Shown here piece by piece: positions 19,636 to 34,715 of a stretch of DNA of 64,000 nt. The translations under genes were made by a program, and so were the position numbers. Origin of the DNA: Halolamina sediminis (lineage in GTDB: Archaea; Halobacteriota; Halobacteria; Halobacteriales; Haloferacaceae). How positions within the stretch are numbered: position 1 is the stretch's first letter; each line of letters begins with the position of its first letter. The stretch lies in contig NZ_CVUA01000001.1 in assembly GCF_001282785.1 (NCBI RefSeq), forward strand, positions 806,001 to 870,000, written 5' to 3'. Below the pieces are notes generated by a model. The model was not told where the DNA came from, made no database searches, and was given only the letters and a program-made list of their open reading frames with translations.

Positions 19636-20358
19636 CTACTCGGCTAGCGTGTAGCGCTCGTCGCCGCCGAGGACGACTACTTCGGTGTCGCTGCCCGTCG
19701 CTTTCACTTCGCGAACGAACTCGTCGGTGTCGATCTCGATCGGCGGGAACGTGTCGTAGTGCATCGGGAACGCCACGTCGGGGTTGATCCAGTCGACCGC
19801 GATCGCGGCCTGTGCCGGCCCCATCGTGAAGTGGTCGCCGGCGGGAACCGCGGCGGCGTCGGGTTCGAGGAACGGCGCGATCACGTCTTTCATCTCGGAG
19901 TGGAGCGACGTGTCGCCGGCGTGGTAGAACGCCGTGCTGTCGGCGTCGGCCTCCTGTGTCGGCTTCTTGTCGCTGATCACGAAGCCGGCGGGCATGCCCC
20001 CGGAGGCGCCGTACCCAGTGTCGAGCCCGTTAGTGTGGTCGGCACGCACCATCGTGACGAACGCGTCGCCGAGCTCGACCGTGCCGCCGAGGTTCATTCC
20101 CGTCGAGTCCTCGATGCCGTAGTTGTCCGCGAGATAGCCCGTGATCTCCGGCGTCGAGACGAAGTGGCTCCCCCCGAAGCGGTCGGCGTCGCCGATGTGA
20201 TCGGCGTGGCCGTGCGTGATGAGGACGTGATCCGGGTCCAGCTCCTCCGGATCGGTGTCGGTCTTGGGGTTGTCGAAGAACGGGTCGATCAGGAGTTCGG
20301 TGTCGTCGACGGTCACTGCCCAGGTCGAGTGGCCGTGCCAAGCGAGTTCGAAGGTCAT
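19636..20358 (-). CDS. UPF0173 metal-dependent hydrolase (MBL fold)
   Basis: 240 residues from the ATG at 20358 ([15 protein letters not shown]). The metallo-beta-lactamase core has [19 protein letters not shown], and later [11 protein letters not shown] and [10 protein letters not shown]. The C-terminus ([20 protein letters not shown]) matches UPF0173. These enzymes are widespread hydrolases of unknown substrate. The longer upstream frame is not supported by similarity. Confidence 0.9.
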
Positions 20359-20477
20359 TACGACAGTACGTACGGCCTCGTCCATCCTGAATGTTACTGC
20401 CGTGCCGGAAAGTCAGGCTTCCTGAGACGAATGTTCCCGCCACGCACGAACCGCCGCCGGGAAGGGGCCGGTGCTGC

Positions 20478-21932
20478 TTACTCGACGACCACAGCGCCCT
20501 TCATCCCCATCGTCTTGTGGGGCATGCAGTAGTACTTCGTCGTCCCGGTGTTGTCGAACGTGTGGCTGAACGTGTGGCCGGCCTCGTCGGTCAGCTCACT
20601 GGCGAAGCTGCCGTCGTCGGCCTGCACGTCGTGGCTGCCGCCGTCGCCGGTCCACTCCCAAGTGACGGTCGTTCCGGAGGAGACCGAGATGGCGGCCGGG
20701 CCGAAGCCGAACGCGCCGTCGTTGGCCTGCGAGCCGACCTGGACGGTCACTTCGTCCTCGCCCGTCCGGTCGACGACGCCGTCGTAGTTCCCGACGCCGT
20801 CGAACCAGCCGCCGAAGTCGGCGGTGCCGGAAGAGCCGCTGCTCCCGCTTTCGGCGCCGGGGTCGAACACGTCGGGGTTGGGATCGCCCGTGCGGTTGAT
20901 CACGGCGAGCATCCCCTTGCGCGCGACCCGGGAGAGGGCGTGGTCGACCAGCTTGATCGGCCCGGGTACCTCCGCGTGCAGTGTCGCGATCGCACAGGAG
21001 CCGGGCTTGACCGGCGTCGTCTGGACGTACTTGTTCGGCGGGCCCGCGATAGCGCCCTGCTGCCAGACCTCATCCCAGACGTTCCCGATCGGGTGGAAAC
21101 TACTGTCGAGGTTCGGGCCGCCGGTGACGAAGAACACCCGTGCGGTCTCGCCGACTTCGAGGCTCGGGGCGCCGTAGCGGTCCGGCGTGATGGCGTACTT
21201 CTCGCCGTTCATCAGGACGTACGTCGGGTCCTCGGCCTTCATGGCCTCGAAGTCGAAGTCGTGGTGGCCCTCCTCGCCGGCGTCGCCGGTAGTGTAGAGC
21301 TCGTGCTGGCCGAAGTAGAACTCCTTGTCCACCTCGGGCAACCCCTCCTCGGGCTCGACGAGGATCGCCCCGAACATGCCGCTGGAGATGTGGTAGTCCA
21401 GGTTGGGGACCGCACAGTGGTAGATGAACAGGCCGGGGTAGGTCGCCTTGAACGTGAACGTCTCCGTCTCGCCGGGGGCGACCATCGACGCCTCCGCGCC
21501 GCCGCCAGGACCGCGAACTGCGTGGAGGTCGATGTTGTGGGGCATGGAGTTCCCCTCGTCGTTGGTGATCGTCATCTCCACCTGGTCGCCGACTCGGGCC
21601 CGGATCATCGGCCCGGGAATCCGGCCGTCGAAGGTCATGTACGTGTAGGTGACGCCGGGTTCGACCTCCGCCACCTGTTCGAGCGTGGTCATCTCCACGC
21701 TCACAGCCTTCGGGCTGTCGCGTTCGATCGGACCCGGGATCGCAGTCGGGTTCGCTGCGACGCGTTCGGTGTCGAGAGAGTTCTGTCCGTTCATCTTCGG
21801 GGATTGGGGGGTCGTCTCCGTCGTTTCTTCCTCAGCCGCGGGGGCCGAGATACAGCCGGCCGCGGCCGTCGCGCCGGCCACGCCGAGGCTTTGCAACACG
21901 CGCCGTCGGGTCGCGGTTGGAATAGAGGCCAT
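20478..21932 (-). CDS. nirK: Copper nitrite reductase NirK fused to a C-terminal halocyanin domain
   Basis: 484 residues. An N-terminal Tat-type lipoprotein signal (RRRVLQSLG, lipid-site Cys27) is followed by a complete two-domain NirK. Type 1 copper ligands are His132, Cys173, His181 and Met186; type 2 ligands are His137, His172 and His331; catalytic Asp135 and His280 are present. After a Gly/Ser-rich linker (about 355-372) comes a blue-copper domain with His434, Cys469, His472 and Met477 (YYCMPHKTMGM). NirK reduces nitrite to NO outside the membrane, normally with electrons from a separate halocyanin. Here the donor is attached. No nitrite or NO reductase partner gene is nearby. Confidence 0.93.
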   Translation of the reverse strand: MASIPTATRRRVLQSLGVAGATAAAGCISAPAAEEETTETTPQSPKMNGQNSLDTERVAANPTAIPGPIERDSPKAVSVEMTTLEQVAEVEPGVTYTYMTFDGRIPGPMIRARVGDQVEMTITNDEGNSMPHNIDLHAVRGPGGGAEASMVAPGETETFTFKATYPGLFIYHCAVPNLDYHISSGMFGAILVEPEEGLPEVDKEFYFGQHELYTTGDAGEEGHHDFDFEAMKAEDPTYVLMNGEKYAITPDRYGAPSLEVGETARVFFVTGGPNLDSSFHPIGNVWDEVWQQGAIAGPPNKYVQTTPVKPGSCAIATLHAEVPGPIKLVDHALSRVARKGMLAVINRTGDPNPDVFDPGAESGSSGSSGTADFGGWFDGVGNYDGVVDRTGEDEVTVQVGSQANDGAFGFGPAAISVSSGTTVTWEWTGDGGSHDVQADDGSFASELTDEAGHTFSHTFDNTGTTKYYCMPHKTMGMKGAVVVE

Positions 21933-21964
21933 CGTCGATCACATCTGGAAGATGGCACCGGAGG

Positions 21965-21971
21965 GATATAG
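21965..21971 (-). promoter_or_regulatory. TATA-like box for nirK
   Basis: On the minus strand it reads CTATATC and lies 33-39 nt before the nirK ATG, giving a leader of a few nucleotides. A palindrome lies farther upstream at 22019-22037. Confidence 0.45.
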
Positions 21972-22018
21972 GGGGGTGTGCCGATTCTCAATTTCTTAAA
22001 AACCGGGAGATAGAGGCG

Positions 22019-22037
22019 CCCTATTGGGCAAATAGGG
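22019..22037. promoter_or_regulatory. Candidate operator: 7-5-7 palindrome between nirK and xdhC
   Basis: CCCTATT (22019-22025), spacer GGGCA, then AATAGGG (22031-22037): a perfect inverted repeat in an otherwise AT-rich stretch. It is about 50 bp upstream of the nirK TATA box and about 115 bp upstream of the divergent xdhC start, where an activator site would sit. It does not look like the CGAA-N4-TTCG motif described for the nitrate regulator NarO. Confidence 0.5.
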
Positions 22038-22151
22038 ATAAACCACCCACGGTATATGCGGCCCGGAAATGGGGGTGTCGACAGCCTCACGAGACGATCA
22101 GCTATCGCCGCGTACGACACGCCTAAGTCCCGAGCGTCGCGAGTACGCCCA

Positions 22152-22943: not shown

Positions 22944-23585
22944 CTACGTGTACGTCTTGACTGCCTCCCAGTACTCTGCGGGCGTGTCGATATCCACGAA
23001 TACGCGCTCGTCGTCCACGTCGACCGTCCGCGTGTCGGTGCCGTCGGCGTAGACGACCGCTCGTGCTCCCCGTTCCTCGGTCGCCGGATCGTTCAGCAGC
23101 GCGTCGAACGTCGAGGCGGCGAACAGCGGCGGGTGCCCGCGCTCGCCGTCGGTGGCCGGCTGGATTACGTCCGCCTCGGGGTCGGCGGCGAACGCCTCGG
23201 CGACGGAGCGGACGGCCGCTGCCGGGATCAGGGGATAGTCGACCGGCGAGAGCAGCAGGCCGTCGGCGTCGCGTGCCCGCGCCTCGCGGACGCCGGCTCG
23301 GACCGACGTGAGCATCCCCGCCTCGTACCGATCGTTCTCGATCACCGTCGCACCCGAGAGATCTGCCCGGGCTCGGACTTCCGCAGCCTCGTACCCCACC
23401 ACGACCACCGGCTCGACGCCGACTCGCTCGTACTGCTCGATCAGCCGCTCGACGAACCGCTGGCCGTCGACCGTCAGTAGCGGCTTCGGGAACCCCCCCA
23501 TCCGTGTCGACGCCCCCGCGGCGGTGATCACTCCGAGCAGGTGAAGCGCCTCGGCGCCGCGCTCGTCGGGGTGAACGGTCATCAC
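22944..23585 (-). CDS. MocA-like molybdenum cofactor cytidylyltransferase (nucleotidyltransferase family)
   Basis: 213 residues. ITAAGASTRMGGFPKPLL is the CTP/GTP-binding loop and LLLSPVDYPLIP carries the metal-binding Asp. The segment QPATDGERGHPPLF matches the MocA/MobA family. MocA makes the cytosine dinucleotide form of Mo cofactor used by xanthine-dehydrogenase and CO-dehydrogenase-type hydroxylases. The start could be either of two adjacent Met codons. It is next to xdhC and 0.15 kb from the transporter operon. Confidence 0.88.
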   Translation of the reverse strand: MMTVHPDERGAEALHLLGVITAAGASTRMGGFPKPLLTVDGQRFVERLIEQYERVGVEPVVVVGYEAAEVRARADLSGATVIENDRYEAGMLTSVRAGVREARARDADGLLLSPVDYPLIPAAAVRSVAEAFAADPEADVIQPATDGERGHPPLFAASTFDALLNDPATEERGARAVVYADGTDTRTVDVDDERVFVDIDTPAEYWEAVKTYT

Positions 23586-23661
23586 GACGACAGACGAGCC
23601 GGGAGGGCGTTAAACGCTCGGCTGTCGTCCCGTCTGGGTGTTTGGCGGCGATATGGAGGCG

Positions 23662-23689
23662 GTACCCATGAGTAAAGCAACCATGGTAC
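23662..23689. promoter_or_regulatory. Imperfect inverted repeat upstream of the ABC transporter operon
   Basis: GTACCCATG (23662-23670) faces CATGGTAC (23682-23689) with one unpaired base, 11-12 nt apart. It lies directly upstream of the TATA box at 23700, where haloarchaeal regulators bind. Confidence 0.4.
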
Positions 23690-23699
23690 TGAACGACAG

Positions 23700-23708
23700 T
23701 TTTATATT
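23700..23708 (+). promoter_or_regulatory. TATA box for the solute-binding protein gene
   Basis: TTTTATATT is centred 30 nt before the ATG at 23734, a strong box in this GC-rich DNA. It decides the start: the transcript would be leaderless or nearly so, and the longer upstream reading frame would not be transcribed. Confidence 0.65.
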
Positions 23709-23733
23709 GGGTTTCCGGCAATACGCAGAGCAC

Positions 23734-25629
23734 ATGTCTGACCTTACCAAGCAAGGCGACAACGGCCACCCGAAGATGAACCGACGACGGTGGCTCCAGG
23801 GACTCGGAATCGCGGGAGCAGCCGGCCTCGCCGGCTGTACGGGCGGGCAGGACACTGATACGCCGACGGCGACCTCGACCGAGCCGGACCCGAACGCCAC
23901 GGAGCCGGACACCCCGACGGCGACCGAGCGCCAGGAACTGCCCGAGCGCACGGGGCCGTACCAGCGGACGATCGCCAACGCGGCGTCGACGCTCAACCCC
24001 CTCTACAACAACGTGGACGGGGTCGGCACCCTGATCGGCTACACGATGGACATGGGCTATACGTTCATGCCCGGCACGGAGTTCCTCCCGCAGCTCTACG
24101 ACCTCAGCTCCGACAACGGTGAGGTCTGGGTCGCGGAGGTCCGTGACAACCTCATGTTCGGCGGCGAGTACGAGCGCCAGGTGACCGCCGAGGACTTCGT
24201 CTACCAGGTGCAGGAGATCCACCAGGGCGGCTGGGCCGGGACGCCCGACGCGCCCAACTGGCCCTCCGAGTACAACATCGAACAGACCGGCGAGCTGGAG
24301 TTCCAGATCGAGCTCCCCGACGCGAACGTGCTCTACCCCGAGTCGTACGAGCCACTCCTCTACGCGATCCCGAAGGAGATCATGGAGCCGTACGTCGCCG
24401 AGGAGGACGCCGAAGGGCTCCAGCAGGACGACGACCTGCTCGAGCTCACGTTCACCGGGAACCTCGGCGCCTACGAGCTCGACGAGTGGGACCGTGGCAG
24501 CGCACAGATCTTCTCGCGCAACGACGAGTACTACCTGCGCGATGCGACCGACGTGGATCCGCTGTTCGAGGAAGCGCCGTACTTCGAGGGGATCGAGTCC
24601 GAAGTCGTTCAGGAGGAGGCCTCCCGCCTCGGCGCGCTCGAGACGGGCGAGTCCGACGTGGCCGGCCTCCCGCCGAACCGCGTCTCGGAGTTCCAGCAGA
24701 TGGAGAGCGTCGACGTGAACATCACGCCGACGCCGTTCCAGAGCCTCATCACCTGGAACATGCGTGACAACGGCTGGAACACCGGTCCGGGCAACCTCTT
24801 CCGCGAGCAGTCGTTCCGCCAGGGGCTCGCCTGCGCCGTCAGCAAGGACCAGATCGTCGAGGGTATCTACCGTGGCTTCGCCGACCCGGCGTACACGTTC
24901 CAGCCCGAGTGGTCCACGTTCTACCCGGAGGACGACTCCGCGATCGAGCAGTTCGGAACCGGCGACCTCTACGGCGGCGAGCCCGCGCGGAGCCGCATCC
25001 GCGACGCGATCGAGGACACCGACTACAGCTACGACGGGCAGGGTCGCCTGCTCAACCCCGACGGGGACCAGTGTACGATCACGCTGCACCACTCGGCGTC
25101 GTCGAACACCAACCAGTCCCTCGCGGAGTTCATCGCTCAGGAGTACGAGGAGAACGCGGGGATCGTCGTCGAGACGACCGCGACCCAGTCCTCGCAGTTC
25201 CTGACCAACTACTTCCAGCAGGAGGCGCCGGAGGGCGAGACCGAGTGGAACGCCGGTCCGTTCAACCGTGGCCCGCGTGACGTGACGAGCGCGGAGTCGT
25301 GGGACATGAGCGTCATCTACGGCTACAACACCTACCCGCTCAACCCGACCGTCAGCGACGTGTTCTTCCTGCAGGACGGGAGCACGAACCCGCAGGGGTA
25401 CTACCCGCAGTGGGACGCGGAGGGCCTGTACCAGCAGGCGAACAACGCGACGAGCCGGGACGAGCTCGCCGACGCGATGAAAGAGATCTTCGTCAATCTC
25501 AACCAGGCCCAGCCGATCGGGATGCTGACGTTCAGCGCCGACACGGTCGGGTACGCGGCCGACATCGAAGGTCCCATCGAGGACTTCTTCAGCGGCTGGG
25601 ACTTCCCGGCCTGGTACCGAGACAACTAG
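23734..25629 (+). CDS. ABC transporter solute-binding lipoprotein (SBP family 5, peptide/oligopeptide type)
   Basis: 631 residues from the ATG at 23734. A Tat lipoprotein signal is clear: RRRW at 17-20, hydrophobic GLGIAGAAGLAGC, lipid-site Cys35. A Thr/Pro/Glu-rich linker follows, then a long family-5 binding domain (EDFVYQVQEIHQGGW, LEFQIELPDANVLYP, FREQSFRQGLACAVS). Family 5 members bind di- or oligopeptides, nickel complexes or other small ligands; the ligand here is unknown. It heads the transporter operon and is separated from the first permease by 179 bp, which would let it be made in excess. Confidence 0.9.
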   Translation: MSDLTKQGDNGHPKMNRRRWLQGLGIAGAAGLAGCTGGQDTDTPTATSTEPDPNATEPDTPTATERQELPERTGPYQRTIANAASTLNPLYNNVDGVGTLIGYTMDMGYTFMPGTEFLPQLYDLSSDNGEVWVAEVRDNLMFGGEYERQVTAEDFVYQVQEIHQGGWAGTPDAPNWPSEYNIEQTGELEFQIELPDANVLYPESYEPLLYAIPKEIMEPYVAEEDAEGLQQDDDLLELTFTGNLGAYELDEWDRGSAQIFSRNDEYYLRDATDVDPLFEEAPYFEGIESEVVQEEASRLGALETGESDVAGLPPNRVSEFQQMESVDVNITPTPFQSLITWNMRDNGWNTGPGNLFREQSFRQGLACAVSKDQIVEGIYRGFADPAYTFQPEWSTFYPEDDSAIEQFGTGDLYGGEPARSRIRDAIEDTDYSYDGQGRLLNPDGDQCTITLHHSASSNTNQSLAEFIAQEYEENAGIVVETTATQSSQFLTNYFQQEAPEGETEWNAGPFNRGPRDVTSAESWDMSVIYGYNTYPLNPTVSDVFFLQDGSTNPQGYYPQWDAEGLYQQANNATSRDELADAMKEIFVNLNQAQPIGMLTFSADTVGYAADIEGPIEDFFSGWDFPAWYRDN

Positions 25630-25808
25630 ACACCCAACGCGGTGAATTTTTCGGGAGTCACGGACCGACTACCGAAACACACATTGTTCGAGATGCGATA
25701 CACAGACACACCCAGTGTGACAACCGACACCAGTGTCCGGGCGGCGGTGGCGGTTGGCACCAGCGGAGACAGAAACTTCGGAGACAGATGCACATGAGGA
25801 TATAAGCT
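25630..25808 (+). other. Intercistronic region with T-run and paired palindromes
   Basis: After the stop comes GAATTTTTCGGG, a weak terminator-like T-run. Then CACAC-CCA-GTGTG (25707-25719) and GACAC-CA-GTGTC (25726-25737), two similar palindromes 19 bp apart. Near the end GGATATAAG (25798-25806) sits too close to the permease ATG to be its own TATA box. A partial terminator or processing site here would favour the binding protein over the membrane subunits. Confidence 0.5.
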
Positions 25809-26783
25809 ATGGGAATGGAATGGTACATCGTCCGACGGGTCGCCTGGGCGGCCATCGTGACGTTCATCATCGTCTCGATCACGTGGGGGCTGCTCATGGC
25901 GGCCCCGAACCCCAACGTTCAGCAGGCCGTCACACAGGCAGCGATCGGCGGCGACGACCCCGAGGAGGCGAGGGAGGCAGCACGCGAACGGTTGGGCCTC
26001 GACCGTTCGCCCGCCGAGCGCTACATGGACTACGTCGTCGGTATCTACACGCTCAACTGGGGGTGGTCAGACAGTCGTAACCAACCAGTAACGGCGGCAC
26101 TGATCGAGTCGCTCTACTACACCGCCCAGTACTCGGTCCCCTGGACGATCCTGACGATCCTGATCGGGCCGATCGTGGGGCTGTACTCGGCTGCCAACCA
26201 GTACAGCTGGAAGGACCACGTCGCGACAGGCTTCGCCTTCTTCGGCTATGCAATCCCGAACTTCTTCTTCGGGATAATCCTGTTACTGATATTCGGGGTG
26301 ACGTTGGAGTGGATCCCCGTGATATACAACACCGACGTGCCGGTGTTCAGCCTCGCGAACGTGAACCAACTGGTGATACCGGTGTTCGTGCTGGTCACGG
26401 GCTCGATCGGCGGGATCATGCGCGTCTCGCGGAACGAGTCCGCGGAGTTCGTCAACGCCGACTTCGTCAAGACCGCGCGGGCGAAGGGGGTCTCGACGTA
26501 CAAGATCTACTTCCAGCACATCCTCCGGCCGACGATGGTACCGCTGTCGACGACGATGGTAAGCCAGCTGCTGGCGCTGTTCACCGGCGCCTCGCTGCTG
26601 GTCGAGGTGGTGTTCAGCATCCCCGGGCTCGGGACGACGCTGTTCCGGGCGATCACCTCACAGGACACGAGCCTCGTGCTCGGCTCGACCCTGTTTTTCA
26701 CCTTCGTCGCGACCATCGGGAACCTGCTCCAGGACCTGGTGTACACAGTGCTTGACCCGCGGATCAGCTTCGAGGACCGATAA
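25809..26783 (+). CDS. ABC transporter permease, DppB type
   Basis: 324 residues with six predicted spans. The cytoplasmic EAA loop is recognisable as NADFVKTARAKGVSTYKI, and the N-terminus MEWYIVRRVAWAAIVTFI is typical of DppB/OppB. A second ATG two codons downstream is an alternative start. The stop codon shares one base with the next permease start (26783), so the permeases are translationally coupled. It forms the channel with the DppC-type protein. Confidence 0.92.
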   Translation: MGMEWYIVRRVAWAAIVTFIIVSITWGLLMAAPNPNVQQAVTQAAIGGDDPEEAREAARERLGLDRSPAERYMDYVVGIYTLNWGWSDSRNQPVTAALIESLYYTAQYSVPWTILTILIGPIVGLYSAANQYSWKDHVATGFAFFGYAIPNFFFGIILLLIFGVTLEWIPVIYNTDVPVFSLANVNQLVIPVFVLVTGSIGGIMRVSRNESAEFVNADFVKTARAKGVSTYKIYFQHILRPTMVPLSTTMVSQLLALFTGASLLVEVVFSIPGLGTTLFRAITSQDTSLVLGSTLFFTFVATIGNLLQDLVYTVLDPRISFEDR

Positions 26784-28006
26784 TGGCGACGGACAGATCC
26801 ACCTTCGACCGAGTCGACTGGGAGCAGATCACCGAGGAGTCGAACCGTGAGCTGTCGCCGAACTTCATCGGCATGGCTGCCGGGATGGCGGTGCTCACGC
26901 TGCTGATCCTGTACGACTACTTCCTGGTGACTCGGACCTACGACCAGATGCTCGGGCTCGACCTGGGCGGGCAGTACACGCCGACGTTCGCGCCGATCGG
27001 CTGGGAGTACGACGTGACCCAGCTCGACTGGCTGTTCGCCGTCTCGCTGCTTTTGTTCGGGTTCTACGTCGTGCTGCCGCTGTACCAGAACTCGCGGATG
27101 ACGAAGTACTACTGGCGGGAGATGAAGCGCAACCGCCCGGCGATGGTGAGCCTGGGCTGGCTGATCTTCATCTTCGTCGTCGGCGTGCTGGGGCCGGTCG
27201 TGATCCCCGCGCCGACCTCGGAGCTGTTCCTGAAGTACCAGCCGCCGATGTTCCTGGAGATCTCCCAGAACTACCCGATCAACTGTGTCGGTCCCATCGT
27301 CGACGGCGCCTGCCAGGGCACGATGCAGTACCCGCTGGGGACGACCCAGAACGGGCGGGACATCTTCAAGATCATCATCTACGGGATGCAGATCAGCATG
27401 AAGATCGGCTTCATCGCGACGCTGATCGTCATCACCATCGGCACCGGGGTCGGGACGGTGTCGGCGTACGCGGGCGGCCTCGTCGACGAGGTGCTGATGC
27501 GCTGGGTCGACATCCAGCAGTCGTTCCCGACGTTCATCCTCTACCTGCTGATCCTCTACATCTGGGGCGGCGGGCTGTTCCTGTTCATCGTCCTGTTCGG
27601 GCTGTTCTCTTGGGAGGGGACCGCACGCTACGTGCGGAGCAACGCGCTCGCGAAGACCGAAGAGGAGTACATCAAGGCGACACAGCTCAGCGGCGCGAGC
27701 ACGTACCGGATCATCCGGGCCCACATCGTGCCCAACAGCGCGAGCAGCATCATCACAAACATCACGCTGCTGATCCCGGCGTTCATCCTCGCGGAGGCTC
27801 AACTCGCGTTCCTCGGTCTCGGTGACTCGGCGATCCCCTCCTGGGGACAGCTGATCTCCGCGGGCCGCTCGGATCTCGGGTTCGCCCCCTGGATCACGCT
27901 GGCGCCCGGGATATTCCTCTTCTTCACCATCTTGGCGTTCAACTTCCTCGGGGACGCCCTCCTCGACGCACTGAACCCCGAAGCTGACGCGGAGTCAGAA
28001 CAATGA
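26783..28006 (+). CDS. ABC transporter permease, DppC type, with long N-terminal part
   Basis: 407 residues, about 110 more than bacterial DppC. The extra length is at the N-terminus, which has two added hydrophobic spans (about 32-50 and 81-100) and an insert with paired cysteines (INCVGPIVDGACQG). The conserved part has PLGTTQNGRDIFKI and the EAA loop TEEEYIKATQLSGASTYRI. The stop overlaps the next gene by 4 nt (ATGA). Confidence 0.92.
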   Translation: MATDRSTFDRVDWEQITEESNRELSPNFIGMAAGMAVLTLLILYDYFLVTRTYDQMLGLDLGGQYTPTFAPIGWEYDVTQLDWLFAVSLLLFGFYVVLPLYQNSRMTKYYWREMKRNRPAMVSLGWLIFIFVVGVLGPVVIPAPTSELFLKYQPPMFLEISQNYPINCVGPIVDGACQGTMQYPLGTTQNGRDIFKIIIYGMQISMKIGFIATLIVITIGTGVGTVSAYAGGLVDEVLMRWVDIQQSFPTFILYLLILYIWGGGLFLFIVLFGLFSWEGTARYVRSNALAKTEEEYIKATQLSGASTYRIIRAHIVPNSASSIITNITLLIPAFILAEAQLAFLGLGDSAIPSWGQLISAGRSDLGFAPWITLAPGIFLFFTILAFNFLGDALLDALNPEADAESEQ

Positions 28007-29046
28007 CAGACGAGCCACTACTCACGGTCGAAGGACTCACGACGGAGTTTACCACGGACAAAGGAACGCTGATCGCCGTCGACGGTATCGACTTCGAGAT
28101 CCCCCGCGGCGAGACGGTCTGTCTCGTGGGGGAGTCGGGGTCGGGGAAGACCGTCGCCAGCGAGTCGATCACCCGCATCGTCCCCACGCCCCCGGGAGAG
28201 GTCTCCGGGAGCGTGACGTTCGACGGACGGGAGGTCACGACGATGAGCGAGTCCGAGTTGGAGGAGATCCGCGGCGGGCGGATCGCCCACATCTTCCAGA
28301 ACCCACAGGACGCGCTCAACCACTGCTACACGGTCGGCTGGCAGATCGTCGAGGCAGTCCAGACCCACGAGCCCGACGTCTCCAAACAGGAGGCCCGCGA
28401 GCGCGCGGTCGAACTGCTCAACGACGTTGGCGTCGCAAACGCCGCCGCGCGGTTGGACGACTACCCCCACGAGTTCTCGGGCGGGCAGAAACAGCGCGTG
28501 ATGATCGCGATGGCGCTGGTCACCAACCCCGACCTGCTGATCGCCGACGAGCCGACGACCGCGCTCGACGTGACGGTGCAGGCCCAGATCCTGAACCTGC
28601 TCGAAGATCTCCAGGACGAGTACGACATGTCGATCCTCTTCGTCACCCACGACCTGGGGGTCGTCGCCGGCATCGCCGACCACGTCGTCGTGATGTACGC
28701 CGGGAAGGTGATGGAGCGGGGCACCGTCTCTGAGATCTTCGAGGACCCCTCTCACCCCTACACGCGTGCGCTGCTCGAGTGTCTGCCCGGGCAGGCCCGC
28801 GCCGCGGAGGGGATCCCGGGGACGCTCCCCTCGCCGATCAACCCACCAGACGGCTGCCGGTTCGCGCCGCGGTGTGACTACGCGGTCGAGGAGTGCACCG
28901 CCGGCGAGCAGCCCCCCGAGGAGCCGCTGTCGGACACCCACGCCGTCTCGTGTGTCCACTACCAGCAGGGGTACGACGCCTCGACGGTGAAAGAGGAAGT
29001 CGTCCAGGACGACGGCGCGACCACCGGAGGTGTCACCAGTGACTGA
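28003..29046 (+). CDS. Peptide-type ABC transporter ATP-binding protein, DppD type
   Basis: 347 residues. Walker [13 protein letters not shown], signature [15 protein letters not shown], Walker [15 protein letters not shown] and switch His in FVTHDLG. The C-terminal oligopeptide/dipeptide region carries the cysteine cluster [14 protein letters not shown] seen in the family, which often holds an iron-sulfur cluster. It powers the two permeases with the DppF-type partner. Confidence 0.95.
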
Positions 29047-30382
29047 CGAACCCCTGGTCTCCGTCCGGAACCTGCAGAAGCACTACCCGATCACCCAGGG
29101 GATCCTCTCCCGGCAGGTCGGCGCCGCCAAGGCCGTCGACGGGATCAGCTTCGACATCGCCGAGGGGGAGACGCTGGGGCTCGTCGGTGAGTCCGGCTGT
29201 GGGAAGTCGACCGCGGCGTCCTCGATCATCCGGCTGGAGGAAGCCACCGACGGCGAGGTCATCTTCAACGGCGGCGGTCGCGCCGGCCGCGAACGGAACG
29301 CCGACGGCACCCACCCCAACGACGTGACGAAGTTCGACGACGAGGAGCTCAAGTCGTTCCGCCGGGACGCCCAGATGATCTTCCAGGACCCGTCCTCGAG
29401 TCTCGACCCGCGGATGACCGTCGGGCGCTCGGTCGCGGAGCTGCTGATGGTCCACGGGATGACCGACAAACAGCGCCGCCGGGAGATCGTCGAGGATCTG
29501 CTCGAACGCGTCGGGCTCGAAGCGGACTACTACGACCGCTACCCCCACGAGTTCTCCGGCGGGCAGAAACAGCGCATCGCGCTGGCCCGCGCGCTCGTGC
29601 TCAACCCCGAGTTCATCGTGGCCGACGAGCCCGTCTCCGCGCTCGACGTGTCGATCCGTGCGGAGATCCTCTCGCTGCTGAACGACATTCAGGAGGAGTT
29701 CGGCCTCTCGATGCTGTTCATCAGCCACGACATGAGCGTCGTCCGGGAGGTCTGTGACCGCGTCGCGGTGATGTACCTCGGCGAGATCGTCGAGATCGGC
29801 GACACCGACGAGGTGTTCACCAACCCCCAGCACCCCTACACCGAGGCGTTGCTGTCGGCGATCCCGCGGCCGGACCCCTCCGACCAGCGCGAGAACATCG
29901 AACTGAAGGGGACCGTCCCCAGCCCCATCTCCCCGCCGTCGGGCTGTAAGTTCCACACGCGCTGTCACATGGTGATCCAGTCCGACGAGTACGACGTCGA
30001 GCAGGAGGACTGGCGCGCGTTGCTGACGTTCCGGGACAAGGTTCAGGCCGGCGAGATCGACCCCGAGGGGATCCGACAGGCGCTCGCGCCGCCGGACGAG
30101 GAGCCCTCGGTCGTCGACGACGAGACCGTCGAGTCACAGATCCGGATCGAGTTCGACCTGCCCGAGACGCTCGCGGACGACGAAGCCGAGGCGATCGTCG
30201 ACCGCGCGCTCGACGCGCTCACGAGCGGCGACGTCGAGACCGCCGAAAACGAGCTGTCGACGTTCACCACGCCCTGCGAGAAGGACGAGCCCGAGGAGAC
30301 CGACCACGGGAACGGCCACCTCTCGGCGTGTCTGCGAAACAAGCCCGAAACCGAACACGGCGCCCCGCTCGCCGACGACTGA
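29039..30382 (+). CDS. Peptide-type ABC transporter ATP-binding protein, DppF type
   Basis: 447 residues from a GTG at 29039 that overlaps the upstream stop; a Shine-Dalgarno-like GGAGG at 29026-29030, 8 nt before it, decides this start over the GTG at 29030. Walker [13 protein letters not shown], signature [15 protein letters not shown] and Walker [15 protein letters not shown] are complete. After the C-terminal [10 protein letters not shown] segment there is an acidic extension of about 120 residues ending [11 protein letters not shown], as in other haloarchaeal paralogues. It ends the operon, 10 bp before the convergent hydroxylase large-subunit stop. Confidence 0.94.
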
Positions 30383-30391
30383 GCGGCGCGC

Positions 30392-32722
30392 TCAGCCCTC
30401 TTCTGCCGCCCGGACCCGCTCCGGCGTGAGCGGCATGTCGAGGTGGTCGACGCCGACCGCGTCGGCGACCGCGTTCACCAGCGCCGGCGGCGCCGCGATC
30501 GTGCCGGCCTCGCCGATGCCTTTCACGCCCAGCTCGTTCTCCGGGCTCGGCGTCTCCCTCGCCCGCGTCTCGATGTCGGGCAGGTCACCAGCCCGCGGGA
30601 GCGCGTAGTCGAGCATCGTCGCCGCCGCCAGCGTGCCGTCCGCGCCGTACGTCGCCCGCTCGGACTGGGCCTGCCCGAGCCCCTGTGCGACGCCGCCGTG
30701 GACCTGTCCCTCGACGATCCGGGGGTTCACTCGGACCCCGCAGTCGTCGACTGCGACGTAGCGTTCGATCTCGAACTCGCCGGTCTCGGGATCGACCGCT
30801 ACCGCGACCGCGTGGCTACCGAACGTGTAGGCAGTGTCGTCGAGTTCGTAGAACGTCGTGGCCTCCAGCCCCGGCGAGAGCCCCGCGGGGAGCCCTCGGC
30901 CGTAGGCGGCGTCGGCCACGTCGGCGAACGAGCAGCGGTCGCCGTCGGCACGGAACCCCGACTCGGTCTGCTCGATTTCGTCGGGCGCGGCGTCGAGCTC
31001 GTGGGCGGCGATCCGTTCGGCCTTCTGCAGCACGTCGGCGGCGCTCTCGGCCACCGCGTTGCCGCCGACGACCGTGCTCCGGGAGCCGAACGTCCCCGTC
31101 CCGGTAGGAACTTTGTCGGTGTCACCCTCGACGACCTCGATCTCTCCCGGTCCGACCGGGAGCTCCTCGGCGACGATCTGGGCGTAGATCGTGCCGTGAC
31201 CCTGTCCGTGGTCGTGGGTGCCCGCCGAAACCGTCACGCCGCCGTCTGGGTGGACGCGCACGACGCCGCTCTCGAAGCCGCCGCCGGTGCTCTCGACGTA
31301 GCCCGCGACGCCCACACCCCGCAAGCGTCCGTCGTCGTCGCGCTCGCCGCCGCTCGGGTGTTCCGAGACCGCCTCGGCCGCCTCGTTGAGCGCGGGCTCG
31401 TAGTTCCCGCTGTCGTACGTCGCGCCGACCGCGGTCTCGTGGGGGAAGTCGTCGGCGTCGATCAGGTTCCGCCGCCGGAGCTCGATGGGGTCGACGCCCA
31501 ATTCGTCGGCGGCCACGTCCACGAGGCGCTCGGTGACGTACACCGCCTCGGGCCGGCCCGCGCCGCGGTAGGAGTGGACCGGCGCCGTCGTCGTGAACAC
31601 GCAGCGCGACCGGCAGTAGATCGCGGGAACCTCGTACTGGCTCGCGAGCAGCCGGCCGTACCAGCCCGGCATCGCGCCGCCGCCGCCGAGTGCGTAGCCG
31701 CCGATCCCGGCGTACGTGTCCGCCCGCAGGCCGAGAAAGCGACCGTCCGAATCGAGCGCGAGTTCGGCGGTCGTCCGATGGTCGCGACCGTGGGCCCCCT
31801 CGCGGTAGTTCGCCGAGCGCGTGGCGGTCCACTTCACCGCCTCGCCGAGTTCGCGGGCGGCCCAGGCGGCCATCGCTTCGCCGGGGTGGTGGTGGCCCTT
31901 GTGCCCGAACCCGCCGCCGACGTCGGGCGAGATCACCCGTATCTGGCGTTCCGGCTCCCCGAGCGTGTGCGAGAGCTTCCGCCGGTGGCCGTGGGGCGAC
32001 TGGCTGCTCATCGTCACCGTGAACCCCTCGGTGCGATCGTACTCGGCCATCGCCGCGCGCGGTTCGAGCGCGCTGGGGATCAGGCGGTTGTTTTCCAGAT
32101 CGACGCTGACGATCTCCGCGGCCTCGGCGAACGCGCGGTCGGTCGCTTCCCGGTCGCCGAGTTCGCCGACCGCGGCGACGTTGTCCGGCGCCTCGTCGAA
32201 CAGCGTCGGGGCGTCCTCGTCGGCGGCGGCGCGCGGGTCGGTCTCCACGCCGAGGGGATCGTACGCCACGTCGACTGCCTCGACGCCGTCGGCGGCGGCG
32301 TAGCGGTCCCGCGCGACCACCGCGGCGACGGGCTGCCCGTCGTAGCGAACGCGGTCGGCGGCGAGGACGGGATGACCCGGCACCTCGCAGTCCAGCGGCT
32401 CCGTCCGGACCGGAAGTCGCATCGGCGCGTCGCTGTCGGCCAGATCCGTCCACGTGTAGACAGCAACCACGCCGTCGACCGCCTCAGCCGCGTCGGTGTC
32501 GATTTCCTCCACGCGTGCGTGAGCGTGCGGGCTCCGGACGAACGCGAGCGCGGCGGCCTCCTGCCCGAAGTCGTCGGTGTACGTCGTCTCCCCGCGGAGC
32601 GCGCGGGCGTCCTCGCGACGCAGCGGGCTGTGGCCGATCCCCTCCCCGCCTTCTGCTGTGCCGGCGTCGGCGGTCGTCGGCACCGACCCCTCGGCCTCGA
32701 TGACGCTCTCCTCGCCGCTCAT
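30392..32722 (-). CDS. Molybdenum hydroxylase large (Mo-cofactor-binding) subunit, xanthine dehydrogenase/CoxL family
   Basis: 776 residues from the ATG at 32722. The N-terminal a/b-hammerhead begins at about 45 (ARALRGETTYTDDF). The substrate-side loop is SYRGAGRPEA (Tyr385 to Ala393), the form seen in CoxL form II and related hydroxylases; true CO dehydrogenases have AYRCSFR. The catalytic glutamate is Glu738 in KGIGEAGTIAAPPA. The enzyme hydroxylates a carbon next to nitrogen or an aldehyde. The substrate is unknown, but CO oxidation can be largely excluded by the loop. The start overlaps the FAD subunit stop by 4 nt. Confidence 0.93.
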   Translation of the reverse strand: MSGEESVIEAEGSVPTTADAGTAEGGEGIGHSPLRREDARALRGETTYTDDFGQEAAALAFVRSPHAHARVEEIDTDAAEAVDGVVAVYTWTDLADSDAPMRLPVRTEPLDCEVPGHPVLAADRVRYDGQPVAAVVARDRYAAADGVEAVDVAYDPLGVETDPRAAADEDAPTLFDEAPDNVAAVGELGDREATDRAFAEAAEIVSVDLENNRLIPSALEPRAAMAEYDRTEGFTVTMSSQSPHGHRRKLSHTLGEPERQIRVISPDVGGGFGHKGHHHPGEAMAAWAARELGEAVKWTATRSANYREGAHGRDHRTTAELALDSDGRFLGLRADTYAGIGGYALGGGGAMPGWYGRLLASQYEVPAIYCRSRCVFTTTAPVHSYRGAGRPEAVYVTERLVDVAADELGVDPIELRRRNLIDADDFPHETAVGATYDSGNYEPALNEAAEAVSEHPSGGERDDDGRLRGVGVAGYVESTGGGFESGVVRVHPDGGVTVSAGTHDHGQGHGTIYAQIVAEELPVGPGEIEVVEGDTDKVPTGTGTFGSRSTVVGGNAVAESAADVLQKAERIAAHELDAAPDEIEQTESGFRADGDRCSFADVADAAYGRGLPAGLSPGLEATTFYELDDTAYTFGSHAVAVAVDPETGEFEIERYVAVDDCGVRVNPRIVEGQVHGGVAQGLGQAQSERATYGADGTLAAATMLDYALPRAGDLPDIETRARETPSPENELGVKGIGEAGTIAAPPALVNAVADAVGVDHLDMPLTPERVRAAEEG

Positions 32723-33624
32723 GGTGCCACCCCCTCCCGGCCGACGGCGCGAGCGACCGCCTCGGTAACGGCATCCTCGGCACACGCTGACAGCAGTGTC
32801 CGGCGCTGCTCGGCCGAGACGACGTGATCCTCGCGAACGGGACCGTCCACGCGATCGCCCGCCTTCGCCGCGGCGTCGGTAACGCTGTCGACCGGCGAAC
32901 CCGCATCGGCACCGTCGAGTTCGCGCTCGACCGCCCTGAGCCGGACCGGCGCGTCACACAGGCCCACGGCCGCGACCCGTGGGTCGGCTACGCTGCCGTC
33001 GACGACCCGGAGCCGCGCGGCGACGCCGACCGACGCGTACCCCGTCGAGGGGTGGGTCTCCCGCGCGTAGCCGCCACTAGCGTCGGAAGCGAGCGGGATC
33101 GAGATCCGAGTCAGCAGTTCGTCGTCCTCCCGGACGGTCTCGTGGTCGCCGGTCGCGAACCCCTCGGCTGGGACTGTTCGGTCGCCGTCAGGGCCGACGA
33201 GGTGGAGCGTGGCGTCCGCGGCGACGGTCGCCGCCGGGATGTCGCTCGCGGGGTGGGCCGCGGCGAGGTTCCCGCCGACGGTGCCGCGGTTGCGGATCTG
33301 GGCGTCGCCGACCGCCGCCGTGGCGTCGAGCAGCACGTCGATGCCCGCCGGCTCGGCGTCGAGCAGCTCGGCGTCGGTCGTGAGCGCGCCGATCGAGATT
33401 CGTTCGGTCGCGCCGTCGGCGTCGTCCACGGCGACACGCCCGACGCCGCGAAGTTCCCCGAGCCCCCCGAGATCGACGACCGTTTCGGGGTCGCGTTCGC
33501 GGGCCTTGAGCAGCGGAACCAGGTCGTGTCCGCCCGCGAGCGGGACCGCGTCGGGGGCCGCGAGCGCGTCGAGGGCGTCGTCGAGCGAGTCGGGGCGCTC
33601 GTAGTCGAACCGCGGCGGGAACAT
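32719..33624 (-). CDS. Molybdenum hydroxylase FAD-binding subunit (CoxM/XdhB type)
   Basis: 301 residues. FDYERPDSLDDALDAL and PLAGGHDLVPLLKAR form the first FAD site, and DAQIRNRGTVGGNLAAAHPASD carries the second. DELLTRISIP and the C-terminal CO-dehydrogenase flavoprotein domain follow. It passes electrons from the iron-sulfur subunit to an acceptor. It shares 4 nt with the large-subunit gene and 1 nt with the small-subunit gene, so the three are one operon read from 34217 to 30392. Confidence 0.94.
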   Translation of the reverse strand: MFPPRFDYERPDSLDDALDALAAPDAVPLAGGHDLVPLLKARERDPETVVDLGGLGELRGVGRVAVDDADGATERISIGALTTDAELLDAEPAGIDVLLDATAAVGDAQIRNRGTVGGNLAAAHPASDIPAATVAADATLHLVGPDGDRTVPAEGFATGDHETVREDDELLTRISIPLASDASGGYARETHPSTGYASVGVAARLRVVDGSVADPRVAAVGLCDAPVRLRAVERELDGADAGSPVDSVTDAAAKAGDRVDGPVREDHVVSAEQRRTLLSACAEDAVTEAVARAVGREGVAP

Positions 33625-34217
33625 CAGTCCCCACCCCCAGATGCCGGGTCGTCACCGTCTCCCGCCGACTCGCACCTGGCGCCGTCGGTTTCGATCGGTT
33701 CGAGCTTCGCCGCGGCGGCCTCGACGGCGTCGACGACGTTCTCGTAGCCCGTGCAGCGACAGACGTTCCCCTTCAGCCCCTCGCGGATCTCCTCGCGGTC
33801 GGGGTCGGGGTTGTCCGCGAGCAGGTCGCGGCTCCGGAGCACCATCCCCGGCGTGCAGTAGCCACACTGGAGCCCGTGCTCCTCGTGGAAGCTGCGCTGG
33901 ACCGGGCCCAAGTCGGCGTCGGCGCCGGGTTCGGGAGCGGTCTCGTCGGTCTCGCTGAGCCCCTCGGGTGCCCCCTCGATCCCGCCGACAGTGGTGATCT
34001 CGGCGCCGTCGGCCTGCACCGCGAGCACGCAGCAGGACTTGGCGATCTCGCCGTCCAGCTCGACGGTGCAGGCGCCGCACTTCCCGGACTCGCAGCCGAC
34101 GGTGGGCTGGGTGTACCCCCAGTCCTCCCGGAGCGCGTGGACCAGCAGCCGTCTGGCCTCGACGGTCGCCGTCTCGGTCGTCCCGTCGACGGTCGCCGTC
34201 ACCTCGTGTTCGGACAT
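33624..34217 (-). CDS. Molybdenum hydroxylase 2Fe-2S subunit (CoxS type)
   Basis: 197 residues from the ATG at 34217. The plant-type cluster ligands are Cys42, Cys47, Cys50 and Cys62 ([10 protein letters not shown]), and the second cluster ligands are Cys118, Cys121, Cys153 and Cys155 (CGYCTPGM and NVCRCTGY). Between them is an acidic insert of about 20 residues (82-104) not usual in bacterial CoxS, and a polar tail follows residue 170. It is the first gene of the operon. The longer upstream frame has no similarity. Confidence 0.94.
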
Positions 34218-34340
34218 ACCCGTCGGTTGGGTCGGAGGACCATATTGGTTGGTACGGACCGGCACGGTTGCCGGTGAGTCGCCGTCGCTTCCCCACCGCC
34301 ACCGTGAGGCGTATGCCCGTCGAGGCGCTAACGGCGCCTG

Positions 34341-34715
34341 ATGCTTCCTCCGCTGGCGGCCGGCGTCCACGGGCAGGACCCCACGATGTTCGTCCTGCTC
34401 TCAGTGGCCGCCGCGCTGACTGCCGTCGTCGCCGGCCTCGCGATCGCGGCGTTCGTCCGGCGGCGCTCGCGGCGCTACCTGCTGGTCGCGCTGGCGCTGT
34501 CGACGCTGCTCGCCCGCAGTGCGATCGGCGTGGGCGCCTACCTCGGCGCCGTCGGCCCGGGGCTCCACCACACGCTGGAACACGCACTCGACGTGTCGAT
34601 GGCGGCACTGGTGATCGCGGCCGTCTACCTCGTCGGCAAGCCGGCGTACTCGGACGCGATCCGTGCCGACGGGGGCGAGCGCGACGGGGACCGGAACGGA
34701 GGGGACGAGCGATGA
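34341..34715 (+). CDS. Small membrane protein with three spans (DUF7471-like)
   Basis: 124 residues. Three hydrophobic helices (about 16-38, 45-68, 82-99) are joined by short basic loops (FVRRRSRRY), and the C-terminus is hydrophilic and acidic. Its stop overlaps the start of the winged-helix regulator by 4 nt (ATGA), so the two are made together; such membrane protein-regulator pairs are frequent in haloarchaea, often beside copper or redox loci. The start could also be the Met at codon 16. Confidence 0.75.
   Translation: MLPPLAAGVHGQDPTMFVLLSVAAALTAVVAGLAIAAFVRRRSRRYLLVALALSTLLARSAIGVGAYLGAVGPGLHHTLEHALDVSMAALVIAAVYLVGKPAYSDAIRADGGERDGDRNGGDER

Follow-up and report, generated by a model that had tools for sequence, protein, structure and literature searches.

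The window, that is, the whole 64,000-nucleotide stretch of Halolamina sediminis DNA analyzed here, carries a gene that joins a copper nitrite reductase (NirK) to a C-terminal halocyanin, and this fusion is real, rare among haloarchaea, and maintained by selection. A halocyanin on the same chain is probably the electron feeder of nitrite reductase in some salt-loving archaea, and we consider it likely that the product is a three-copper NirK whose tethered halocyanin would feed the type 1 copper of the core. The window belongs to a 2.84 Mb single-contig genome (G000). The coding frame is on the minus strand, and the plus strand over 20478-21932 holds only a shadow frame. The features are as follows.

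20478..21932, minus strand: nirK-halocyanin fusion gene, 484 aa (open frame and domain matches; architecture and gene order recur in other Halolamina)
21852..21932, minus strand: Tat signal and Cys27, residues 1-27, lipobox-like (sequence)
20853..21773, minus strand: NirK core, residues 54-360, two cupredoxin domains (TIGR02376, 444 bits)
21375..21539, minus strand: residues 132-186, with type 1 ligands His132, Cys173, His181, and Met186, type 2 ligands His137 and His172, and catalytic Asp135 (sequence and invariance)
20892..21188, minus strand: residues 249-347, recombinant segment resembling the unfused g29 NirK, with catalytic His280 and type 2 ligand His331 inside (site pattern and trees)
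20811..20864, minus strand: linker, residues 357-374, Gly/Ser-rich, without Tyr (sequence; variable, dN/dS 0.37-1.31 over 17 codons)
20481..20810, minus strand: halocyanin domain, residues 375-484 (TIGR03102, 152 bits; dN/dS 0.16-0.41)
20631..20633, minus strand: His434, halocyanin copper ligand (sequence, invariant)
20502..20528, minus strand: residues 469-477, with halocyanin copper ligands Cys469, His472, and Met477 (sequence, invariant)
20396..22104, no strand: stretch missing, along with nirK, in two Halolamina genomes that match the window on either side (L203 and L206 compared with the window)

The 484-aa product matched TIGR02376 (NirK) over residues 54-360 with 444.4 bits (cut-off, 296.3; E 2.6e-133) and TIGR03102 (halocyanin) over residues 374-484 with 152.2 bits (cut-off, 93.8; E 5.3e-45); given these E-values, the matches are not due to chance. 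The NirK core has its full type 1 (His2-Cys-Met) and type 2 (His3) ligand sets and the catalytic Asp and His, and the halocyanin domain has a complete His-Cys-His-Met type 1 set; these 13 residues do not vary between the window copy and those of two named Halolamina. An initial annotation had called the product a NirK with a tethered halocyanin, an identification borne out by both curated cut-offs and by the retention of all ligands. It had placed the NirK ligands at His132, His137, His172, Cys173, His181, Met186, and His331, the catalytic residues at Asp135 and His280, and a second blue-copper site (His434, Cys469, His472, and Met477) after a Gly/Ser linker, and we found every one of them there. 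Its coordinates, 20478-21932, were also correct, but it missed the minus strand, as well as the occurrence of the architecture on two NirK lineages and the recombinant nature of the window copy. The N-terminal signal of the window copy includes RRR and Cys27, with Ala at position -3 versus Val in the other intact Halolamina copies; the haloarchaeal Tat lipobox consensus is given as [LVI][ASTVI][GAS]C (PMC8301774). AlphaFold2 run on three sequences gave a pLDDT of 34.6, too low for use.

Across six pairs, dN/dS was 0.12-0.18 for NirK residues 54-248 and 0.16-0.41 for the halocyanin domain; the halocyanin tail is under purifying selection. The linker (only 17 codons) gave 0.37-1.31 and is under looser constraint, as expected of a flexible tether. 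NirK-family enzymes are homotrimers with the type 2 copper between subunits, and they reduce nitrite to NO. The Halolamina protein would be a three-domain nitrite reductase exported by the Tat pathway and probably lipid-anchored outside the cytoplasmic membrane, with its NirK core presumably forming the usual trimer. The halocyanin domain, on its short flexible tether, would take electrons from the respiratory chain, directly or via free halocyanin, and with copper in each predicted site these would pass to the type 1 copper of the core and then to the type 2 copper for the reduction of nitrite to NO.

The fusion belongs among the known three-domain NirKs. Like TsNirK of Thermus scotoductus, it consists of a NirK core followed by a C-terminal cupredoxin with a His2-Cys-Met copper, but in TsNirK the type 1 copper of the core is bound axially by Gln and the catalytic residue is Ser, whereas the fusion has Met186 and Asp135, and the Halolamina tail is a halocyanin on a shorter, Gly/Ser-rich linker (PMC6400189). 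In TsNirK the extra domain packs against the core of its own subunit with the type 1 coppers about 14 Å apart, and a putative path from T1CuC through T1CuN to T2Cu spans 14.1 Å and 12.6 Å within one subunit (PMC6400189). RpNiR and PhNiR, which end in a cytochrome c, also tether an electron-carrier domain C-terminally to the NirK core, but they have a heme and a gating Tyr in the linker, whereas the fusion has copper, and its residues 357-374 include no Tyr; the tethered domain of RpNiR has the further function of regulating access of the substrate (PMC13324648, PMC7201279). HdNiR of Hyphomicrobium denitrificans likewise carries an extra blue copper domain, but that domain is N-terminal, the enzyme is a hexamer, and the distal copper lies about 24 Å from the core copper (PMC7201279), which is described as too far for effective transfer (PMC7201279, PMC13324648). 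The fusion shares the Tat signal, the clade II motif SSFHP, and the same ligands with two-domain haloarchaeal NirKs (e.g., that of Haloferax mediterranei), but those end at about residue 360, and their halocyanin, if any, is a separate gene (PMC8301774). In the halocyanin-CbaD of haloarchaeal ba3 oxidases, too, halocyanin is fused to part of its electron acceptor, there a heme-copper oxidase and here NirK (PMC3128077, PMC8305020, PMC3403918). By sequence match only, the halocyanin domain is weakly similar (E 4.6e-10) to the C-terminal cupredoxin (318-406) of PDB 9cck, a copper-containing nitrite reductase of 409 aa. The surprise is moderate, since bacterial NirKs with a C-terminal cupredoxin are already known.

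The donor of haloarchaeal NirK is called unknown, or halocyanin is proposed, in PMC8301774, PMC9240420, PMC11218638, and PMC7754194. PMC8301774 names nearby halocyanin as a candidate donor and describes the haloarchaeal NirKs analyzed there as two-domain; the Halolamina fusion runs counter to a two-domain form for all haloarchaeal NirKs. Our search, which covered open-access literature, found no description of a NirK-halocyanin fusion. The gene fusion is direct genomic evidence for the NirK-halocyanin pairing, parallel to halocyanin-CbaD for oxidases, and it offers a single polypeptide for measuring donor-to-enzyme electron transfer in high salt.

We favor electron donation by the tethered halocyanin because both domains exceed their cut-offs with full ligand sets, because dN/dS is low in both and higher in the linker, and because the same architecture occurs on two NirK lineages (see below). 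Gene neighborhoods argue the same way. Among 120 nirK loci sampled, 119 were unfused, and 46 of these had a halocyanin gene (E <= 1e-12) within flanks of about 2.5 kb. In 40 of them the halocyanin gene lies upstream and is encoded on the opposite strand, no more than about 520 bases from the NirK core in 26 cases; in 3 it follows nirK on the same strand, and 3 have another arrangement. Chance would give roughly 2 of 119, judging from the approximately seven other halocyanin-like genes in G000, although the comparison is informal, the loci being related to one another. G000 also has halocyanin fused to an oxidase subunit, a COX2-like protein of 326 aa that ends in a halocyanin domain and is encoded beside a COX1 gene (L004:1495-2475, minus strand, equivalent to L213:1898-2878), and the halocyanin-CbaD fusion is taken in the literature as evidence for a halocyanin-oxidase link (PMC8305020, PMC3403918, PMC3128077). 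Finally, TsNirK has the same domain order and copper distances fit for transfer (PMC6400189), and by this bacterial structural precedent the suggestion of the initial annotation that a halocyanin tether would alter the electron route is plausible. In G000 there is also a tandem halocyanin protein with hydrophobic C-terminal stretches, encoded directly before oxidase subunit genes (L002:1426-2631), which resembles the published halocyanin-CbaD fusion.

Two points stand against donation by the tethered domain. The first is that tethers can serve otherwise, as the bacterial analogues indicate: the tethered copper of HdNiR is too distant, and the RpNiR tether gates substrate (PMC7201279, PMC13324648). 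The second is that 73 of the 119 unfused nirK loci had no halocyanin gene nearby, and these include close relatives of the fused core. The tethered halocyanin could instead be a docking or gating module that shields the type 1 copper of the core, stabilizes the trimer, or regulates the entry of substrate, with free halocyanin still supplying electrons to the core. The retention of other halocyanins in G000 would suit such an arrangement, as would the RpNiR gate and the wide separation of the coppers in HdNiR (PMC13324648, PMC7201279); we nevertheless regard it as unlikely, as the halocyanin domain retains every copper ligand and evolves under purifying selection, and the linker is poorly conserved and lacks a gate Tyr of the RpNiR type.

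A further alternative concerns the role of the enzyme and not its electron route, so that it can hold together with donation by the tethered halocyanin. From its gene content, the source organism seems to reduce nitrite and N2O, with the intervening step apparently missing: nosZ is present in G000, with a halocyanin near it (L008), and the NorB-type domain PF22085 is absent from the three full-length COX1-family proteins of G000, unlike proteins of G089 and G452, in which it was found. Where both nitrate reductase and NO reductase are lacking, a solitary, accessory nirK might serve nitrite or NO handling and not energy-yielding denitrification, which the missing PF22085, the lack of any narG match in G000, and the absence of nirK from three of seven Halolamina genomes would all favor. 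However, nosZ is present, nitrite can come from neighbors, and other fusion-bearing genomes have either NarG-like proteins, matched below the cut-off (G324 and G172), or a qNor (G089 and G452), and we think this role improbable. An assembly or annotation artifact joining two genes, which the initial annotation had raised and for which we found nothing, is refuted to the point of being negligible by seven other genomes with stop-free frames of the same architecture (G089, G279, G324, G172, G234, G452, and G427), by the same locus and gene order in related Halolamina, and by reading conserved through both domains.

The initial annotation had proposed counting domain architectures and had allowed that the fusion might be the common haloarchaeal form. 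Over five haloarchaeal families, NirK was present in 249 of 476 genomes and the fusion in 9 of the 249, which rules this out, although contig ends cutting NirK frames could conceal a few fusions. By family, NirK and the fusion were found, respectively, in 82 and 5 of 170 genomes (f1), 70 and 1 of 125 (f4), 6 and 1 of 9 (f7), 9 and 2 of 26 (f2), and 82 and 0 of 146 (f3). NirK-bearing genomes were those with a match at E <= 1e-60; among the matches listed, the best halocyanin-only one was 2e-52, with G129 (4e-57) set aside. The class outside these families was covered by one search of 391 genomes, among the matches listed. Among 155 distinct NirK cores (187 loci), 8 had a C-terminal extension of more than 60 residues, and in all 8 it contained halocyanin; in every unfused locus (155 loci, some of them duplicates) the extension was at most 18 aa, in keeping with the annotation's view that haloarchaeal NirK normally stops soon after the core. 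The fused frame of G427 shows no visible signal sequence. Three plasmid records were examined among the best 40 of 520 matching, and two held broken fused nirK copies, one resembling the Halolamina group (Halorussus vallis, L207) and one the second group (Haloarcula sp. JP-L23, L208); in Haloferax larsenii, nirK and halocyanin are separate genes side by side. In G452, qNor, the fused nirK, a directly adjoining unfused nirK, and a halocyanin gene all lie within 8 kb (L215:934-8975).

Within Halolamina, nirK was found in four of seven genomes, fused in all four, and the fused frame of H. pelagica CDK2 (G391, 79% complete) is interrupted. The gene order around nirK (window positions of about 14-29 kb) is common to three named Halolamina records (L038-L040), among them H. 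pelagica CDK2 with its broken frame. In nirK-less G190 (L203) and G073 (L206), matching to the window ends at about 20358-20395 and restarts at 22105-22112, a clean absence with both flanks kept; nirK in Halolamina is an accessory gene at a fixed place. In the third nirK-less genome (G240), the region is also rearranged. The nearest neighbors of nirK encode a metallo-beta-lactamase-fold protein, an OsmC-like protein, and a MobA-like transferase, with no denitrification cluster among them. The published denitrification promoter motif had four one-mismatch matches in the window versus 2.3 expected, and none near nirK. Upstream, window positions 22944-34370 include the MobA-like transferase, a family 5 solute-binding protein of a peptide-type ABC transporter, and, by eye only, frames resembling molybdenum hydroxylase subunits.

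The fusions fall into two groups, group A with Halolamina, G324 (f7), and G172 (f1, a different genus) and group B with G234 and G452 (f2) and G427 (f4). In core trees of 50 NirKs chosen from the 155, group A came together with a support of 90 over residues 51-248, and a clade of all fusions was rejected for this segment (p-AU 6.3e-53) and for residues 249-347 (p-AU 6.3e-10), which rejects one common origin of all fused cores. Fused cores therefore sit in two separate NirK lineages, and the tail was gained at least twice or moved between NirKs. Since the halocyanin domain alone (86 domains, 113 columns) allows a single fusion clade (p-AU 0.31), one tail could have moved between cores. An early FastTree placed the group B halocyanin near the COX2-fused type, a placement dropped when a later tree gave no clear repeat. 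The G324 and G172 loci (about 4.4 kb) showed no match to the Halolamina flanks, which suggests that their fused nirK was transferred. Stop-codon loss between adjoining nirK and halocyanin genes finds no support as the origin in Halolamina, as no halocyanin lies within the 1.5 kb flanks of the nearest unfused NirKs (L013-L037); in some other lineages (L122, L131, and L169), halocyanin is immediately downstream of nirK on the same strand. Our broader interpretation, to which we give somewhat less than even weight, is that NirK acquired tails on two or more occasions, or that a cassette moved between lineages by homologous recombination, with the catalytic half also swapped with unfused NirKs; if so, the recurrent or mobile tail would be an electron-supply solution marking halocyanin as the physiological electron donor for haloarchaeal NirKs generally.

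The window copy itself is, on its site pattern and trees, a mosaic within the fused gene, with residues of about 249-347 resembling the g29 NirK lineage (unfused, from another family), the breakpoints and direction of exchange being approximate. At sites where 5 rows of unfused g29 NirK differ from 4 rows of other group A fusions, the window copy was g29-like at 26 and fusion-like at 19; 22 of the 26 fell inside residues 249-347, versus none of the 19. Control copies L009, L010, and L012 had 2, 5, and 7 scattered g29-like sites versus 47-49 fusion-like ones. For residues 51-248, the nearest row to the window copy was the Halolamina fusion L009 (90%). For residues 249-347, it was a g29 NirK (92% identity), and a clade of the window copy with group A was rejected (p-AU 1.6e-4). 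Over the whole core, the window copy is 84-85% identical to the unfused g29 NirKs, and the exchanged segment includes both the catalytic His280 and the type 2 ligand His331.
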